DNA from: Bacteroidales bacterium
GTDB taxonomy: Bacteria > Bacteroidota > Bacteroidia > Bacteroidales > UBA932
NCBI GenBank assembly: GCA_030695025.1
Contig: JAUYTX010000026.1
Location: 1-50,317, forward strand
Length of the DNA: 50,317 nucleotides
Direction of reading: 5' to 3'
In this document: in pieces, positions 14,444 through 21,178 of the stretch
Position numbering within the stretch: the first letter of the stretch is position 1
Layout of the letters: each line of letters opens with the position of its first letter
Position numbers and translations under genes: made by a program
The notes under the pieces: model-generated
Told to the model about the DNA's origin: nothing
The model's database searches: none
The model's input: only the letters and a program-made list of their open reading frames with translations

Positions 14444-15904
14444 ATGATAAATATTCAAACAAAGATACATGACAGATATTCGATAGAATTTAAAACCTGG
14501 TTAAAAACAGACACTAACCAGCTATTAAATAAATATGCCGTAAATATTTGGGTGTTCATCCCCTATAACCTGGATATCAACAGATCTACATATTCCAAGA
14601 ATATGTTCTACAGGGACATACGCACTAATATCAGGCTCATTACTCCTGTTTATCACATCGAAAATATTGCTAGCGAAAACTCAGAACCACTCACTTTTCT
14701 GAGGCAATCATTTCAAAAACTGGCAGAAAATCCAAATCCAGATAATATTGCCGATTTCGAGTACAACATAAAAATGTTCTCGGCAATCTTTAAAAGTTCT
14801 TTGCGAAATCAGGTTTTCCACATTATGGACGATCTAAACGCCCACTCCAGAAATGATGATTGTAAGGTTTTGATTACTGAGACCGAAAAAGTACTAAGGG
14901 AGTATAGAAAACTGTATACAATTATACAAAATGGAGGAATCCCCAAAGTGTGTTCTGACTACTTCCGTTTTGGCGATGAATTTTTGGGAAATATCATAAA
15001 CAGACAGTTTTTCAGACTTTTAAACTATATGAGGGTGAATGACCCAAATATGTATTCATCCCAAAAAGAGCTTTTACTGAACCTTCTTAAAGGAGAGATA
15101 CGTTACAGAAATGACAGGGGTTATCCCATAGTTGACAAAGAGAGTCAAAACATGAATCGTGATCTGGTTTACAGATCAGGAGCATTAAAAAAATATGCAG
15201 AGAGCGAGCTGTTTTTGAATGCGACAAAAAAAAGAGATGCAGTTCTTGTAGAACAAATATATCTAAGCATAGCTGCCGGGATATCAATGATATTTGCCAC
15301 TGCAATTGCATTTTCGTTTCAGCTGAGGTTTGGCAGTTTTACAATGCCTCTTTTTGTTGCTCTGGTTGTAAGCTATATGCTCAAGGACAGGATTAAAGAT
15401 CTTGTACGCTACTATTTTGCACACAAGCTTAAGGAGAAATACTTTGATAATGTGACCACTATAAGTCTCAATAACGTAAGAATTGGCTGGAGTCGTGAGG
15501 GGGTTGATTTTATTAAAGAGGAGAAGGTGTTGCCCCAGGCTATGAAGATTCGGGACAGAACTCCTCTTCTTGAGTCAGACAACAGAAGTTCGGAGGAGAA
15601 AATTCTGCTTTACCGCAAACTTTTGGAGATAGACCGTGAACAACTTGATAAAAATTCAGAGTATTACATATCAGGAGTAAACGATATTCTGCGATATAAC
15701 ATCTCAACATATCTGAATAAGATGGATGACCCTTATGTTCCTCTTTATGTCATAACTCCTGAGGGGGATTACGAGGAGGTTACCGGAGAGAAGATCTATT
15801 ATCTCAATTTTGTAATTCAGCTCAAATATGGAGAGAAAGAGGTTTTTAAAAGATATCGTCTGGTCTTTAACCGTACAGGTATAAACGAAATAGAGGAGTT
15901 GTAA
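14444..15904 (+). CDS. Uncharacterised membrane protein, 486 residues
   Basis: Family not recognised. The protein is mostly soluble with two adjacent membrane helices in the middle (about 271-292 and 297-313), making a hairpin with both large parts probably on the cytoplasmic side. The N-terminal part contains NIWVFIPYNLDINR (about 34-47) and a helical region with many charged residues. The C-terminal part (320-486) is rich in charged residues and ends in a beta-prone segment, KRYRLVFNRTGINEIEEL. No catalytic motif is evident. It is monocistronic, divergent from uxs and convergent with the sulfur operon. A structural or signalling role is possible but unsupported. Confidence 0.75.
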   Translation: MINIQTKIHDRYSIEFKTWLKTDTNQLLNKYAVNIWVFIPYNLDINRSTYSKNMFYRDIRTNIRLITPVYHIENIASENSEPLTFLRQSFQKLAENPNPDNIADFEYNIKMFSAIFKSSLRNQVFHIMDDLNAHSRNDDCKVLITETEKVLREYRKLYTIIQNGGIPKVCSDYFRFGDEFLGNIINRQFFRLLNYMRVNDPNMYSSQKELLLNLLKGEIRYRNDRGYPIVDKESQNMNRDLVYRSGALKKYAESELFLNATKKRDAVLVEQIYLSIAAGISMIFATAIAFSFQLRFGSFTMPLFVALVVSYMLKDRIKDLVRYYFAHKLKEKYFDNVTTISLNNVRIGWSREGVDFIKEEKVLPQAMKIRDRTPLLESDNRSSEEKILLYRKLLEIDREQLDKNSEYYISGVNDILRYNISTYLNKMDDPYVPLYVITPEGDYEEVTGEKIYYLNFVIQLKYGEKEVFKRYRLVFNRTGINEIEEL

Positions 15905-15905
15905 C

Positions 15906-15931
15906 CTCTCCTTTCAGAGAGTTTGGTTTTT
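15906..15931 (+). terminator. Weak candidate rho-independent terminator
   Basis: Just after the stop codon of the 486-residue membrane protein, CTCTC (15906-15910) and GAGAG (15917-15921) can form a 5-bp stem with a 6-nt loop, followed by TTTGGTTTTT. The stem is short and the T run is interrupted, so support is weak. The location between convergent genes fits. Confidence 0.3.
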
Positions 15932-17093
15932 AGTTTCTTATCTGAGAAATCTCTTTTATTGCTTCGATGGCTGCATCAATCTCCTCTTCTGTAGTAAACG
16001 CACCTATGCTCATTCTTACTGTTCCGTGCATGTCAAACGTTCCAATTTGTTCATGAACAAGTGGTGCGCACTGAAGACCGGTTCTGACAGCAATATTGTA
16101 ATCAACGTCCAGCATTGTACCAACATCTCCGGCCTCAAAGCCTGCAATATTGAACGATAGTACCGGATTATGGTTCTTTCTGCTGTTTGCGCAATAGGTT
16201 GTAACTCCCTTTATTTTACTTACCTCGTTGACCAGCTTCTCCCAAAGATCCATCTCTCTTTTGTGAATATTCATAATTCCCTCATGGGTAATCCATTTAA
16301 CTCCGGCATAGAGGCCTGCCACTCCAAGAAGATTAAGGGTTCCATACTCGAGACGGTAAGGATACTCCTCCAGATGACCTCTGTATGCCGACCTTACGCC
16401 GGTGCCTCCTGCTCTGGTGTGGTTAATATGAACCCCTTCCCTAACATAAGAGCCCCCGATCCCTGTAGGTCCCATAAGGCATTTGTGGCCTGTAAAGCAG
16501 TAAACATCTATGTCAGACTCCTGCATGTCAAGATCAACCGATCCTGCTCCCTGACTTCCGTCAACAACAAACAGAACACCCTTCTCCTTGCAAATTTTTC
16601 CTATCTCTGTTAGTGGCTGTATTGTTCCCAGTACATTTGAACAATGTGTAACAATCACAAATTTTGTGTTCTCTTTAATTGCGTTTTTAATGTCCTGAGG
16701 ATTTACATACCCGTCAAAATCAAAAGGGACATAGGTTACCTCAATTTCACCTTTCTGTTCCAAAACATAAAGTGGCCTTAATACAGAGTTATGCTCAAGC
16801 ATGGTAGTAACCACGTGGCAGCCCTTTTCGACAAGACCATTGATTATCAGATTGAGTGTGTCTGTAGCATTGTAACTAAAGGTAAGTCTGTTGTGATCTC
16901 CTCCTCCGTTAAAGAGTTTTGTCAGCATCTTTCTGGTGCCGTTTACAACCTCCTCTGCCTCAAGGGCTGCATCAAAGCCCGATCTTCCGGGACTAACCCC
17001 TTTGTCTCTGAAGAAGCTGTCCATAAATGTATAGACCTCTTCCGGTTTGGGATAGCTGGTTGCAGAGTTGTCCAGATAAATAAGTTTGGCCAT
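15930..17093 (-). CDS. Cysteine desulfurase-family aminotransferase class V
   Basis: A 387-residue fold-type I PLP enzyme. Motifs are YLDNSATSYPKP (6-17), HNSVLRP (101-107), VVDGSQGAGS (176-185, cofactor aspartate), the Schiff-base lysine K204 in FTGHKCLMG, and a C-terminal RTGLQCAP with C342 in the position of the persulfide-forming cysteine of desulfurases. It should take sulfur from cysteine as a protein persulfide. It most resembles the subgroup of cysteine desulfurase-like enzymes found outside isc/suf operons; no scaffold gene is adjacent. It is the last gene of the DsrC-DsrM-DsrK operon, 12 nt after dsrK, which suggests it supplies sulfane sulfur to that system. Selenocysteine lyase is an alternative. 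Confidence 0.85.
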   Translation of the reverse strand: MAKLIYLDNSATSYPKPEEVYTFMDSFFRDKGVSPGRSGFDAALEAEEVVNGTRKMLTKLFNGGGDHNRLTFSYNATDTLNLIINGLVEKGCHVVTTMLEHNSVLRPLYVLEQKGEIEVTYVPFDFDGYVNPQDIKNAIKENTKFVIVTHCSNVLGTIQPLTEIGKICKEKGVLFVVDGSQGAGSVDLDMQESDIDVYCFTGHKCLMGPTGIGGSYVREGVHINHTRAGGTGVRSAYRGHLEEYPYRLEYGTLNLLGVAGLYAGVKWITHEGIMNIHKREMDLWEKLVNEVSKIKGVTTYCANSRKNHNPVLSFNIAGFEAGDVGTMLDVDYNIAVRTGLQCAPLVHEQIGTFDMHGTVRMSIGAFTTEEEIDAAIEAIKEISQIRN

Positions 17094-17105
17094 ATTAAGT
17101 TTAGT

Positions 17106-18431
17106 TTATTGTTTGTTTATTACAAGGGCATCTGCCACGATTTCGGCAATTGTCATAATCTTAACCCCCAATTTATATGTATGATTCAATTGTTGTAGCT
17201 GATCGACACAGTTGTGACACGGAGTAATTACCACCTTTGCACCACTTTTTGCAATCTGCTGAGCCTTTATTGCTCCTATCTTTATTCGCCTTTCGTTGTA
17301 CTCGCTCATTGCAAGCGCACCACCTCCGCCTCCACAGCAGAAATTGTCCTCACCATAAGGATTCATCTCCTGAAGATCAGATACCGAGCTCTTTACCACA
17401 AATCTTATTTCGCTATAGAGTCCGCCATTTCTTACCAGGTTGCAAGGGTCATGAATAGTAACTTTACTGCTGTTTAATGATTTATCCAGTGTTATCTTCC
17501 CTTCACGAATGTATGAGGCAATGACCTCTACAACAGTGATTGTCTCAAAATCAAATTTTTTCTTCAAATAACCCGGACCCTCCCATCTTGTTGCCCTTGA
17601 ACCATGTCCGCACTCTCCGAGTACAAGTTTTTTGCCTCTTAACTTATGAATCTCATCGTGCAAATAACCGGCAATCTGTGCCGCCTGGTCATTATTACCG
17701 TTGAAAAAGCCGTAGTTGGTTACATCGTAGTATTTAGATGAAATTGTCCAACTCTCTTTGGCTGCATAAAAGACCTTGGCGATTGCGCTTATTGAAAGCG
17801 GGAAGAACTTAGGTTCTCTTGGATTTAAGGTGTAGAAAACACTTTTGTCTGTTTCGTCAAGAGGTATTCTTGCATTAACATCTTCCATCTCATCAATCAG
17901 CTCCTCCTCCATCCACTTTATTGTATCAATAAACTCCTCCTGAGGAATCGCCATATTGTTACCTGTATTCAAAGCTGCGTCCACAGTTGACTGAAGCGTA
18001 GCAGGAACCATATTCATGGCTGCAAGCATCTCCCTGCCCTTTCTTACAATATAGGGGATGTCAACCCCTATGGAACAGTGTTTCACACACCTTCCGCACA
18101 TGGTACAAGCTCCGAAAAGCATATCTACCATTTTTTCTGCCATCTCCTGGTTTAGCTCTTTTGCGTTAAAGAGCGCCGGGGCAACCTTTCCGGCAAGTGT
18201 ATTATATCTTCTGTATATCGAAGAGACAAGCTCTGCCTTGGCACCGGGTACATACTGCGCCTCTTTGAATGCCAGATAATACATACAGCTTTCTGCACAT
18301 AGTCCGCATTTAACACAAGCATTCATGTTTGTCTCCAGCTTGCTGTCATCACCTCTGCTAAGTATCTCCAGCGGCTTTTTTATATCAATCTTTTGTGTTA
18401 CCATCTCTAATTTTTCTTTATTGGCGGCCAT
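17106..18431 (-). CDS. dsrK: DsrK-like heterodisulfide reductase iron-sulfur subunit
   Basis: A 441-residue protein with two 4Fe-4S motifs, CVKCGLCAESC (C39-C49) and CTMCGRCVKHC (C109-C119), followed by an HdrD-type catalytic part. The noncanonical LGECGHG (C274) and a full CCG motif (C330, C365-C366, C405, C408) match the arrangement described for DsrK/HmeD, which carries a special [4Fe-4S] cluster that reduces the DsrC disulfide or trisulfide. The start at 18431 is supported by a strong GGAAGGAGGGG ribosome site 3 nt before it, although this overlaps dsrM by 25 bp; a second ATG at 18404 is possible. It should dock on the DsrM-like cytochrome b at the membrane. Confidence 0.88.
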   Translation of the reverse strand: MAANKEKLEMVTQKIDIKKPLEILSRGDDSKLETNMNACVKCGLCAESCMYYLAFKEAQYVPGAKAELVSSIYRRYNTLAGKVAPALFNAKELNQEMAEKMVDMLFGACTMCGRCVKHCSIGVDIPYIVRKGREMLAAMNMVPATLQSTVDAALNTGNNMAIPQEEFIDTIKWMEEELIDEMEDVNARIPLDETDKSVFYTLNPREPKFFPLSISAIAKVFYAAKESWTISSKYYDVTNYGFFNGNNDQAAQIAGYLHDEIHKLRGKKLVLGECGHGSRATRWEGPGYLKKKFDFETITVVEVIASYIREGKITLDKSLNSSKVTIHDPCNLVRNGGLYSEIRFVVKSSVSDLQEMNPYGEDNFCCGGGGGALAMSEYNERRIKIGAIKAQQIAKSGAKVVITPCHNCVDQLQQLNHTYKLGVKIMTIAEIVADALVINKQ

Positions 18432-19042
18432 GTACCCCTCCTTCCGTAAAAATAGCCCAGATTAACTCTTGCGAAAAAGAAGTAGAGCAGATGTTTGGTT
18501 TTACCAAAAGGCATCCACACAAAGAGAAGCGCAGCGGTTGTGTAATATAAAACAGGATCTACAGCATCAATCAGCATTAAGGCAGTAACTACCTGAATTG
18601 CAGTTGTAAGAATGTTCGAAATATAGTCGTCAGCAGAGGAAAAGTACCTCAAATTATCGGTCACAATCCTCTTAACCATTATCCCTGCTCCGGCCATGGA
18701 CGATATTGTCAATGCAGCAGCAGTTATATATAAAAACATGTCTGGAACTCTCTCAATTTTATCTGCCAGTAACAGTATAAAAGGAAAAAGAAGAAGTGAG
18801 ACAAACGTTCCAATATGATAAACAATACCTCCAAGATAGGTAGGCAGGTGCATATAGGCACTCTCTTTTGCTTTAGGGGACATAGCACCTGTAAAGGAGT
18901 AAATTATTCCCTCCTTTACGCTTCCGTTTGGTTGTGATAACTCTTTAGGTAAACCAAGTTTTATAAGATTTACCAGTTTTGCCGTTAAAAGAGTTATGCA
19001 AAGAAAGGCAGATATTACTGCCATTATTTGATACCACTCCAT
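18407..19042 (-). CDS. dsrM: DsrM-like membrane cytochrome b (NarI family), short
   Basis: A 211-residue integral membrane protein with about five helices. Candidate heme b ligands are H65 and H76 (in YMHLPTYLGGIVYHIG) and H184 (in FGKTKHLLYFF). This pattern fits the NarI/HdrE/DsrM group that exchanges electrons between menaquinone and an associated iron-sulfur subunit. Typical DsrM is over 300 residues and has two hemes with four histidines; only three obvious candidates are seen here, so the second heme is uncertain. It lies between dsrC and dsrK (24-nt gap and 25-bp overlap), which supports a DsrMK complex. An HdrE-like naming would be equally valid. Confidence 0.8.
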   Translation of the reverse strand: MEWYQIMAVISAFLCITLLTAKLVNLIKLGLPKELSQPNGSVKEGIIYSFTGAMSPKAKESAYMHLPTYLGGIVYHIGTFVSLLLFPFILLLADKIERVPDMFLYITAAALTISSMAGAGIMVKRIVTDNLRYFSSADDYISNILTTAIQVVTALMLIDAVDPVLYYTTAALLFVWMPFGKTKHLLYFFFARVNLGYFYGRRGTWPPIKKN

Positions 19043-19066
19043 TATAATACGATTGAAGCAGAACGG

Positions 19067-19384
19067 CTATACGCAACCATCAGGCTTGGGAAGACCGGCA
19101 ACTCTGCAGGCTCCTCTGGCAGGGCCCAACGGAAAGAGGTCATAAATTTCACGAAGTTTAATTCCGGTCTCCTGGCAAATTTTCCTGATCATAGGAGCAT
19201 TGCCCTCTTTTTCAAAATTATCCCTGATAATTTTAAGTATAGCCCAGTGTTTTTCGTTAAGTTGATCTATTCCGTCAGATTTTGCAATGAGAGCCGCAAC
19301 CTCTTCATTCCATTCAGATGGATCGGAAAGAAATCCGTCTCCATCTACGTCAAAAACTCTTCCTTCGATCTCAAGTTTCGCCAT
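19067..19384 (-). CDS. dsrC: DsrC sulfur-carrier protein
   Basis: A 105-residue protein of the DsrC/TusE family, ending in GPARGACRVAGLPKPDGCV. Both redox cysteines that define true DsrC are present: C93 and the penultimate C104, 11 residues apart, on the flexible C-terminal arm. TusE proteins of tRNA thiolation keep only the last one. Other family features are the central SEWNEEVAALIA and LNEKHWAILKIIRDNF segments. DsrC carries sulfur as a persulfide or trisulfide and is the substrate of DsrMK. It is the first gene of the operon, divergent from fhs. No dsrAB is present in the window, so the sulfur source must come from elsewhere, possibly the downstream desulfurase. Confidence 0.93.
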   Translation of the reverse strand: MAKLEIEGRVFDVDGDGFLSDPSEWNEEVAALIAKSDGIDQLNEKHWAILKIIRDNFEKEGNAPMIRKICQETGIKLREIYDLFPLGPARGACRVAGLPKPDGCV

Positions 19385-19441
19385 AGCAGTTTCAATGTTT
19401 CATTTTTGGTTAATTGCTGACGAAGTTAGAAAAATTATTAA

Positions 19442-19473
19442 TTTGCCACAAAAACATTATTGAGTTACATTTG
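19442..19473 (+). promoter_or_regulatory. Bacteroidota-type promoter of fhs (-33 and -7)
   Basis: A TTTG at 19442-19445 is followed, after exactly 20 nt, by TACATTTG at 19466-19473. Both elements and the spacing fit the Bacteroidota housekeeping promoter consensus TTTG-N19-21-TAnnTTTG. Transcription would start near 19480, giving a leader of about 37 nt before the fhs ATG at 19517. This is the best-formed promoter in the window and helps place the window in this phylum. Confidence 0.65.
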
Positions 19474-19516
19474 TTTTATAATAAAAAGTAATTGTTTTAC
19501 ATCAAATTTTATTAAA

Positions 19517-21178
19517 ATGACAGATTTGGAAATTGCCCGCACTATTAAAATGCAACCCATTGCAGATGTTGCGAAAAAGCTAGGTATAGATCCGGACGAT
19601 CTGGAACTCTACGGAAAATACAAGGCGAAATTGCCCTTAAAGTATATTGACAGAAATAAATTTGGCAAACTTGTGCTTGTTTCAGCAATTTCACCTACAC
19701 CTGCAGGTGAAGGTAAGACCACCGTTTCCATTGGCCTATCCCAAGGATTGAACAGAATCGGCAAAAAGTCGGTTGTTGTTCTAAGGGAGCCATCTCTTGG
19801 CCCTGTTTTCGGCATTAAAGGTGGTGCAACCGGCGGAGGTTATTCACAGGTTCTACCTATGGAGGATATTAACCTCCACTTTACCGGAGACTTTGCAGCA
19901 ATCGAAAAAGCCCACAATCTGCTTGCAGCACTTATTGATAATAACATCCAGAGTAAAACCCGTTCTCTGGGTCTTGACCCGAGAACTATCTCATGGAAGA
20001 GGGTTATGGATATGAACGATAGGTCGCTCAGGACAATAGTTGCAGGGCTTGGCGGCACAACCCACGGTATTCCGCGTGAAACCGGGTTTGATATCACCGC
20101 TGCATCGGAAGTGATGGCAATTCTGTGCCTGTCAAAGAACCTGGAGGATCTTAAAGAGAGGCTGGGTAAAATTTTCATTGGTTTTACCTTTGATAAGAAG
20201 CCAATTTTCGCAAAAGATTTAAAAGCACAAGGAGCAATGGCCGCTTTGCTGAAAGATGCAATTAAGCCAAATCTTGTTCAGACAATAGAGGGAACCCCGG
20301 CAATTATTCACGGAGGACCTTTTGCAAACATTGCCCAGGGAACAAACACAGTAATCGCCACACAGACCGCAATGTCTCTTACCGATTTTACAGTTACTGA
20401 GGCAGGTTTCGGCTTTGACCTAGGTGCCGAAAAGTTTCTTGACATAAAATGCCGCAGCGCAAAGTTATCGCCAAACGCAGCTGTTCTTGTTGCAACGGTG
20501 AGAGCACTAAAGTATCACGGCGGAATGTCTCTTAAAGATATAAAAACGCCTAACGTTGATGCTTTGGCTAAGGGAATTGTTAACCTTGAAAAGCATGTTG
20601 AAAATATCAGACTTTTCAGTCTTAACCCTGTTGTTGCAATAAATCGCTTTGTAACGGATTCTCAGGAAGAGCTGGATTTTATCCTCAATTTTTGCAAAAG
20701 CAAAAACATTCCTGCAACCGTTGCCGATGTATGGGCAAAAGGGGGCGAAGGCGCAGAAACCCTTGCAAAATTGGTAGTTGAGGCAACAAAAGACTGTTGT
20801 CCAAACTTTGCTCCGCTCTACCCTTTGACCGACACTGTTGAACAGAAAATTGAAACCATCTCCAAAAAGATTTACGGAGCCGAGGCGGTTGACTATACCG
20901 CAAAAGCAAAAAATGATCTTAAAAAGATAGAAAACCTGGGACTTGGAGGACTTGCAATATGTATGGCCAAAACTCAGAAGTCACTCTCCGACAATCCTGA
21001 CCTTTTAGGGCGACCAAAAGATTTTGTAATCACAGTAAGAGAGATAGAGATAGCCTCAGGTGCAGGTTTTCTTGTTCCTATAACCGGAGAGATTATGAGA
21101 ATGCCTGGATTGCCTGAAGAGCCATCATCAGAGAGGATAGATATAGATAATGATGGCAATATTTCAGGCCTCTTTTAG
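19517..21178 (+). CDS. fhs: Formate-tetrahydrofolate ligase
   Basis: A 553-residue enzyme, the full family length. It makes 10-formyl-THF from formate, THF and ATP, and can run in reverse in amino-acid fermenters to gain ATP. The ATP-binding loop reads TPAGEGKTT near the N-terminus, followed by LREPSLGPVFGIKGGATGGG, TRSLGLDPR, GGTTHGIPRETGFDIT and ends with GEIMRMPGLP. The start at 19517 (MTDLEIARTIKMQ) is chosen over an ATG 19 codons upstream, which precedes or overlaps the promoter element. Its 3' end lies 4 nt from hisIE on the other strand. It may serve purine/methionine C1 supply or histidine/glycine catabolism. Confidence 0.97.
   Translation: MTDLEIARTIKMQPIADVAKKLGIDPDDLELYGKYKAKLPLKYIDRNKFGKLVLVSAISPTPAGEGKTTVSIGLSQGLNRIGKKSVVVLREPSLGPVFGIKGGATGGGYSQVLPMEDINLHFTGDFAAIEKAHNLLAALIDNNIQSKTRSLGLDPRTISWKRVMDMNDRSLRTIVAGLGGTTHGIPRETGFDITAASEVMAILCLSKNLEDLKERLGKIFIGFTFDKKPIFAKDLKAQGAMAALLKDAIKPNLVQTIEGTPAIIHGGPFANIAQGTNTVIATQTAMSLTDFTVTEAGFGFDLGAEKFLDIKCRSAKLSPNAAVLVATVRALKYHGGMSLKDIKTPNVDALAKGIVNLEKHVENIRLFSLNPVVAINRFVTDSQEELDFILNFCKSKNIPATVADVWAKGGEGAETLAKLVVEATKDCCPNFAPLYPLTDTVEQKIETISKKIYGAEAVDYTAKAKNDLKKIENLGLGGLAICMAKTQKSLSDNPDLLGRPKDFVITVREIEIASGAGFLVPITGEIMRMPGLPEEPSSERIDIDNDGNISGLF

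Follow-up and report, generated by a model that had tools for sequence, protein, structure and literature searches.

The window analysed here is a 50,317-nucleotide stretch of a Bacteroidales bacterium genome (assembly GCA_030695025.1, contig JAUYTX010000026.1). It carries a four-gene cluster encoding a DsrC, a membrane cytochrome b-like subunit (M), a DsrK-like iron-sulfur protein (K), and a pyridoxal phosphate (PLP) cysteine desulfurase-family enzyme (CSD). This uncultured bacterium and relatives from several other phyla combine the second half of the sulfate-respiration machinery with a cysteine-desulfurising enzyme in place of a sulfite reductase, and our analysis suggests that they have an undescribed membrane-respiratory route from cysteine sulfur to H2S. 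The four open reading frames were found on the minus strand at 15930-19384, each at the coordinates of a preliminary description made from the sequence alone. In order of transcription, they are dsrC (19384-19067, 105 aa), M (19042-18407, 211 aa), K (18431-17106, 441 aa), and CSD (17093-15930, 387 aa). Because dsrC and M are 24 bp apart, M and K overlap by 25 bp, and the K-CSD gap is 12 bp, the genes likely form one operon, in agreement with their description as tightly packed.

The preliminary description had noted no sulfite reductase gene beside the cluster and proposed a search for dsrAB elsewhere in the genome. The siroheme sulfite reductase family PF01077 covers DsrAB, AsrC, Fsr, CysI, and NirB. 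It had no match in the window genome (a 2.25-Mb metagenome-assembled genome (MAG), 91% complete), which extends the observation genome-wide for this family; octahaem MccA and molybdenum sulfur reductases lie outside PF01077 and were not searched for. PF01077 was likewise absent from all 21 K-bearing relatives of the order and from 36 of 38 further K genomes, reached through named loci (57 of 59 overall). Since the family is absent in so many genomes, MAG incompleteness is not a sufficient explanation. Ordinary Dsr metabolism with dsrAB encoded elsewhere was rejected on these grounds. Judged from gene content, DsrC appears here without its usual partner DsrAB, and the pathway of the module is not sulfite reduction. 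The two PF01077-positive genomes, both of Chloroflexota (L124 and, from Dehalococcoidia, L126), have no CSD ortholog at K. In both, a DsrC/TusE-like domain in which the terminal cysteine is missing is fused to the C-terminus of K (L124:5929-7638 and L126:5904-7559). These fusions indicate that K and DsrC belong together.

DsrC, K, and CSD are strictly co-inherited within the order, as judged from the same 198 genomes searched with K, PF04358, and CSD. K was found in 22 genomes spanning 17 families. The CSD ortholog was found in all 22 and in only one further genome (G073), with 59 to 71% identity in the relatives against 44% for the next-best match. The high-scoring DsrC class occurs in the same 23 genomes, and every member read has two cysteines. 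The co-occurrence of K and CSD gave a Fisher p of 2.6e-28 over the 198 genomes, uncorrected for relatedness. In G073, in which K was not found, dsrC is followed directly by CSD without M or K between them, at a contig end (L169:7323-8853). CSD adjoins K in 17 of the 21 order relatives, lies elsewhere in the genome in three, and is on broken contigs in one; the desulfurase synteny questioned in the preliminary description is thus kept. G122 has dsrC-M-K together and CSD on another contig. In a rumen and horse-gut Bacteroidales clade, K stands alone at L064-L075, L077, L078, L080, L085, L106, and L111; both genomes of this type that were checked (G001 and G120) keep dsrC-M and CSD on contigs other than that of K. 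The pairwise distances of K and CSD correlate at 0.93, a value obtained without a control gene and not used as evidence. The gene linkage of the set is secure, and a chance neighbourhood was rejected by the co-occurrence and by linkage kept despite rearrangement. With PF01077 absent and CSD synteny kept, a functional link between CSD, DsrC, and the M and K subunits is strongly supported at the level of genome comparison.

The DsrC of the operon scored above the cut-offs of TIGR03342 (97.4 bits, cut-off 53.5) and PF04358 (117 bits, cut-off 24.9; E 5e-34). Its C-terminal arm (...GACRVAGLPKPDGCV) holds the redox cysteines C93 and C104, 11 residues apart with C104 penultimate, as in DsrC sensu stricto; the preliminary call of a true DsrC was correct. 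Both arm cysteines are present in 57 of 58 DsrC homologs adjoining K. The protein reached 65.5 bits against the TusE equivalog cut-off of 191. A second DsrC of the window genome is of the one-cysteine TusE type and is encoded beside a type III SQR and DsrE2. Because this one-cysteine protein sits apart from K, in the SQR/DsrE2 cluster, the second cysteine tracks K. The cluster is on contig C47 (L025:9496-11715), with dsrC between the SQR and DsrE2 genes, and the SQR scored 640 bits with the selenoprotein-subtype model NF049943. Of the other Bacteroidales loci read, most (L170-L178 except L174) have a DUF1641-type gene that separates SQR from DsrC.

K carries two CX2CX2CX3C motifs (C39/42/45/49 and C109/112/115/119) and a CCG-type cysteine-rich region (C274, C330, C365-366, C405, and C408). 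All fourteen cluster cysteines are invariant in 20 aligned sequences. K scored 217 bits with the DsrK model NF045796, 288 bits with HmcF, and 282 bits with TmcB, below the respective cut-offs of 400, 750, and 735; five homologs from other phyla scored 241 to 275 bits with the DsrK model. Because these scores fall far short of the cut-offs and each of the 20 family members tested likewise matches these three models, K is treated, on its profile scores, as a family sister to DsrK, HmcF, and TmcB, DsrK-like rather than a curated DsrK. The preliminary identification as DsrK therefore stood for the two 4Fe-4S motifs and the CCG cysteines but not for the profile score, and the names "DsrK" and "DsrM" apply to K and M only loosely. 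In a sequence search of the PDB (E ≤ 1e-5), the sole match of K was EtfD (9ojn).

M had no sequence match in the PDB search and no Pfam match, and it scored 32 bits with HmcE (cut-off 275). Its AlphaFold model has a predicted local distance difference test (pLDDT) score of 93. E. coli NarI was its best structural match (VIA Z 10.4 over 168 residues), NarI entries were the top eight in the fold search (Foldseek E 0.025), and EtfD came next (VIA Z 8.2). A VIA Z of 10.4 is middling for helical bundles, and the assignment rests on the clear lead of NarI over unrelated matches. M is predicted from this model to have a NarI-like fold, which agrees with its description as a NarI-like cytochrome b. 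Of 60 family members, 35 have all four histidines (65, 76, 184, and 194), and His 76 and His 184 are near-invariant.

CSD scored above the cut-off of TIGR01977 (435 bits, cut-off 377) and below those of SufS, IscS, and SclA (312 bits with SclA model NF040779, cut-off 525). Its PLP lysine K204 and its catalytic-loop cysteine C342, which the preliminary description had pointed out, are invariant in the aligned sequences, and its place in the PLP cysteine desulfurase family was upheld, as a cysteine desulfurase/selenocysteine lyase-like enzyme. The window genome encodes its own SufS beside SufE-like genes; hence, a housekeeping desulfurase role for CSD was rejected.

The gene set recurs in the order and in about six phyla beyond that of the window, a broader range than the conserved neighbourhood first envisaged. 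The named-genome scan gave 80 loci, 62 of which have K plus M or DsrC. CSD is present in 48 of these 62 (36 co-directional downstream, 8 convergent, and 4 upstream), and several of the 14 loci without it end at a contig boundary. Carriers include Bacteroidales bacterium CF (complete genome CP006772, locus L051), Ca. Butyricimonas faecavium, and members of Planctomycetota, Zixibacteria, Eisenbacteria, Aminicenantes, Acidobacteriota, and CSSED10-310. According to database records, many of the carriers are MAGs obtained from gut, rumen, digester, and sediment, hence from mostly anoxic habitats. On a quick tree of K, 9 changes account for the four-gene label, versus 24.6 when shuffled, and the module may have spread by lateral transfer. 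At some lake and marine loci, genes for another class-V PLP enzyme and for DsrE2 are present as well. This enzyme (about 495 aa, SufS-like below the cut-off) adjoins the operon in L076, L088, L095, L099, L102, and L036, and DsrE2 accompanies it in L036, L076, L099, and L102. In a minority of loci (L090:4544-4792 and 13 others), a small protein of about 80 aa with five invariant cysteines and a CPDFVLPD motif is encoded upstream of dsrC. No Pfam or NCBIfam family matched it convincingly, and its structural model is poor (pLDDT 66). Because it was not detected in the window genome, it is not essential.

We propose a quinol-linked sulfur-carrier module, in which CSD loads DsrC, M and K reduce DsrC with quinol, and sulfide is released. 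CSD would convert L-cysteine to alanine and pass the sulfane sulfur from C342 to the penultimate C104 of DsrC. Attack by C93 would either set sulfide free, leaving a DsrC disulfide, or form an internal trisulfide. K would then reduce DsrC through its CCG cluster, with M supplying electrons from the quinone pool, so that cysteine and quinol would be converted to alanine, H2S, and quinone. Such a module could be a small respiratory electron sink or could dispose of excess sulfane sulfur. We infer the transfers, their direction, quinol as the donor, and cysteine as the substrate; we favour reduction, as no enzyme that would oxidise the sulfur further was found. Precedents exist for the individual steps. 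Passages of one paper report that the DsrC of A. vinosum is persulfurated in vitro only on the penultimate cysteine, by IscS plus cysteine or by sulfide, and that DsrK interacts with DsrC in this organism (PMC3397948). In sulfate reducers, DsrMK(JOP) acts on the DsrC trisulfide, reducing it and freeing sulfide, according to passages of another (PMC10504309), and its donor is menaquinol (PMC13232883). Given IscS-loaded DsrC and trisulfide reduction by DsrMK, a desulfurase could take over the loading of DsrC from DsrAB.

Several points weigh against this proposal. K falls under the cut-offs of DsrK, HmcF, and TmcB. The one solved relative that the sequence search gave for K, EtfD, serves electron-transfer flavoprotein, so disulfides need not be the substrate of a CCG quinone enzyme. 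The M of the window has a His-His-His-Asn set, with His 65, 76, and 184 and an asparagine at the fourth haem-ligand position (194), and one secure haem b is the safe reading of its sequence. The quinone route is partly seen in the window genome, in which MenD was not found at the cut-off and a UbiA-family MqnP-like prenyltransferase is present. By estimate, little energy would be gained with menaquinol. The window genome also encodes SelD and MnmH, and the founding member of TIGR01977 has been proposed as a selenocysteine lyase (PMC2276186). Of the circuit put forward in the preliminary description, the functional link between the desulfurase, DsrC, and the M and K subunits stood (co-inheritance, synteny, and no PF01077), but the DsrK and DsrM identities held only loosely. 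As a reasoned proposal, the sulfur-carrier circuit stands at about an even chance of being correct. The wider claim falls somewhat short of even; it holds that in Bacteroidales and several other phyla, a widespread respiratory circuit uses a PLP desulfurase, not a sulfite reductase, to load DsrC, and that cysteine (or other sulfane) sulfur accepts electrons from the quinone pool with H2S as the product.

Electrons might instead flow in the oxidative direction, from a DsrC dithiol or persulfide through K and M to the quinone pool, with CSD or other sulfurtransferases loading or unloading DsrC in sulfide or persulfide oxidation. DsrMK homologs do operate in reverse in sulfur oxidisers, as stated in passages of PMC10504309, and the window genome has the separate SQR/TusE/DsrE2 cluster. 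EtfD, the nearest solved relative, probably feeds electrons to menaquinone. We nevertheless consider this direction unlikely, as no rDsrAB or other PF01077 enzyme was found to carry sulfur further, CSD is not an oxidative enzyme, and the habitats of many carriers are mostly anoxic. No greater probability is assigned to an assimilatory relay comparable to IscS-Tus, in which CSD and DsrC would supply sulfur for thiolating tRNA or for making iron-sulfur clusters or cofactors, while the M and K subunits would only keep the two-cysteine DsrC reduced. TusE, a DsrC homolog, does receive cysteine sulfur for tRNA 2-thiouridine (passages of PMC3397948); however, an occurrence as sporadic as 22 of 198 genomes would be unusual for a housekeeping function, the DsrC score of about 65 bits is far from the TusE cut-off of 191, and sulfur transfer needs no membrane quinone complex. 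The window genome also encodes a SufS of its own, alongside SufE-like genes, and the separate one-cysteine DsrC.

The selenocysteine lyase proposal for the founding member of TIGR01977 and the presence of SelD and MnmH would also fit selenium handling, with CSD as a selenocysteine lyase and DsrC as a carrier of selenium or selenide. This seems improbable, since CSD scores only 312 bits against the SclA cut-off of 525, its orthologs track DsrC and K exactly, and several loci have sulfur-transfer neighbours (DsrE2 and the second class-V PLP enzyme). The genes for SelD and MnmH (tRNA selenouridine) are adjacent at L194:3042-5499, on contig C77 of the window genome.

Upstream, the operon is flanked by a divergent formate-tetrahydrofolate ligase gene with a probable ATG near 19518. 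The intergenic region between this gene and dsrC (19385-19517) is the presumed promoter region; promoter-like matches within it were not above chance. Downstream lies a convergent gene (14444-15904), to which profile searches assigned no family. A stem-loop between it and CSD (15905-15929) is a possible shared terminator, and terminator-like matches in this region numbered 9 versus 3.2 expected.

The second DsrC cysteine is found only with DsrAB, apart from a few named exceptions, in the account given by passages of PMC3397948. The genomes considered here break this rule, and the second cysteine tracks K instead. Passages of PMC10504309 deal with genomes having the full DsrABCMK set and mention a handful of DsrK/DsrM sequences without DsrAB; no desulfurase partner for DsrC/DsrMK is described in the passages of either paper. 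The preliminary description knew of no system with exactly this gene set, and targeted literature searches, with most subscription papers outside their scope, found no description of a DsrC-M-K-CSD set either. If the proposal is correct, uncultured gut, rumen, sediment, and digester bacteria would possess a membrane-coupled cysteine-to-sulfide route, which dsrAB marker-gene surveys would miss. The module would also be a simple system in which to study energy conservation by DsrMK-type complexes.

By analogy, the module would work like the last step of Dsr respiration. It shares with DsrC/DsrMK(JOP) a two-cysteine DsrC, a NarI-like cytochrome b, a protein with CCG and two 4Fe-4S motifs, and a presumed flow from quinol to DsrC. 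Unlike that system, it occurs in a genome without DsrAB or any PF01077 enzyme, has a PLP desulfurase instead, lacks the J, O, and P subunits in the window operon, and has a K whose score does not reach the cut-off of DsrK. TmcBC and HmcEF of sulfate reducers are the best NCBIfam relatives of K and M (HmcF, TmcB, and HmcE); however, the module is far below their cut-offs, DsrC and CSD adjoin it, and the window operon has no multihaem cytochrome c gene. EtfD likewise combines a NarI-like membrane part and a CCG iron-sulfur part related to M and K, but it is a single fused protein that works without DsrC. In the IscS-TusABCD-TusE relay, a cysteine desulfurase feeds a DsrC-family carrier, as is proposed for the module. 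Distinct from that relay, the module has a two-cysteine DsrC rather than a one-cysteine TusE, a quinone-linked membrane complex, and a TIGR01977 enzyme in place of IscS.

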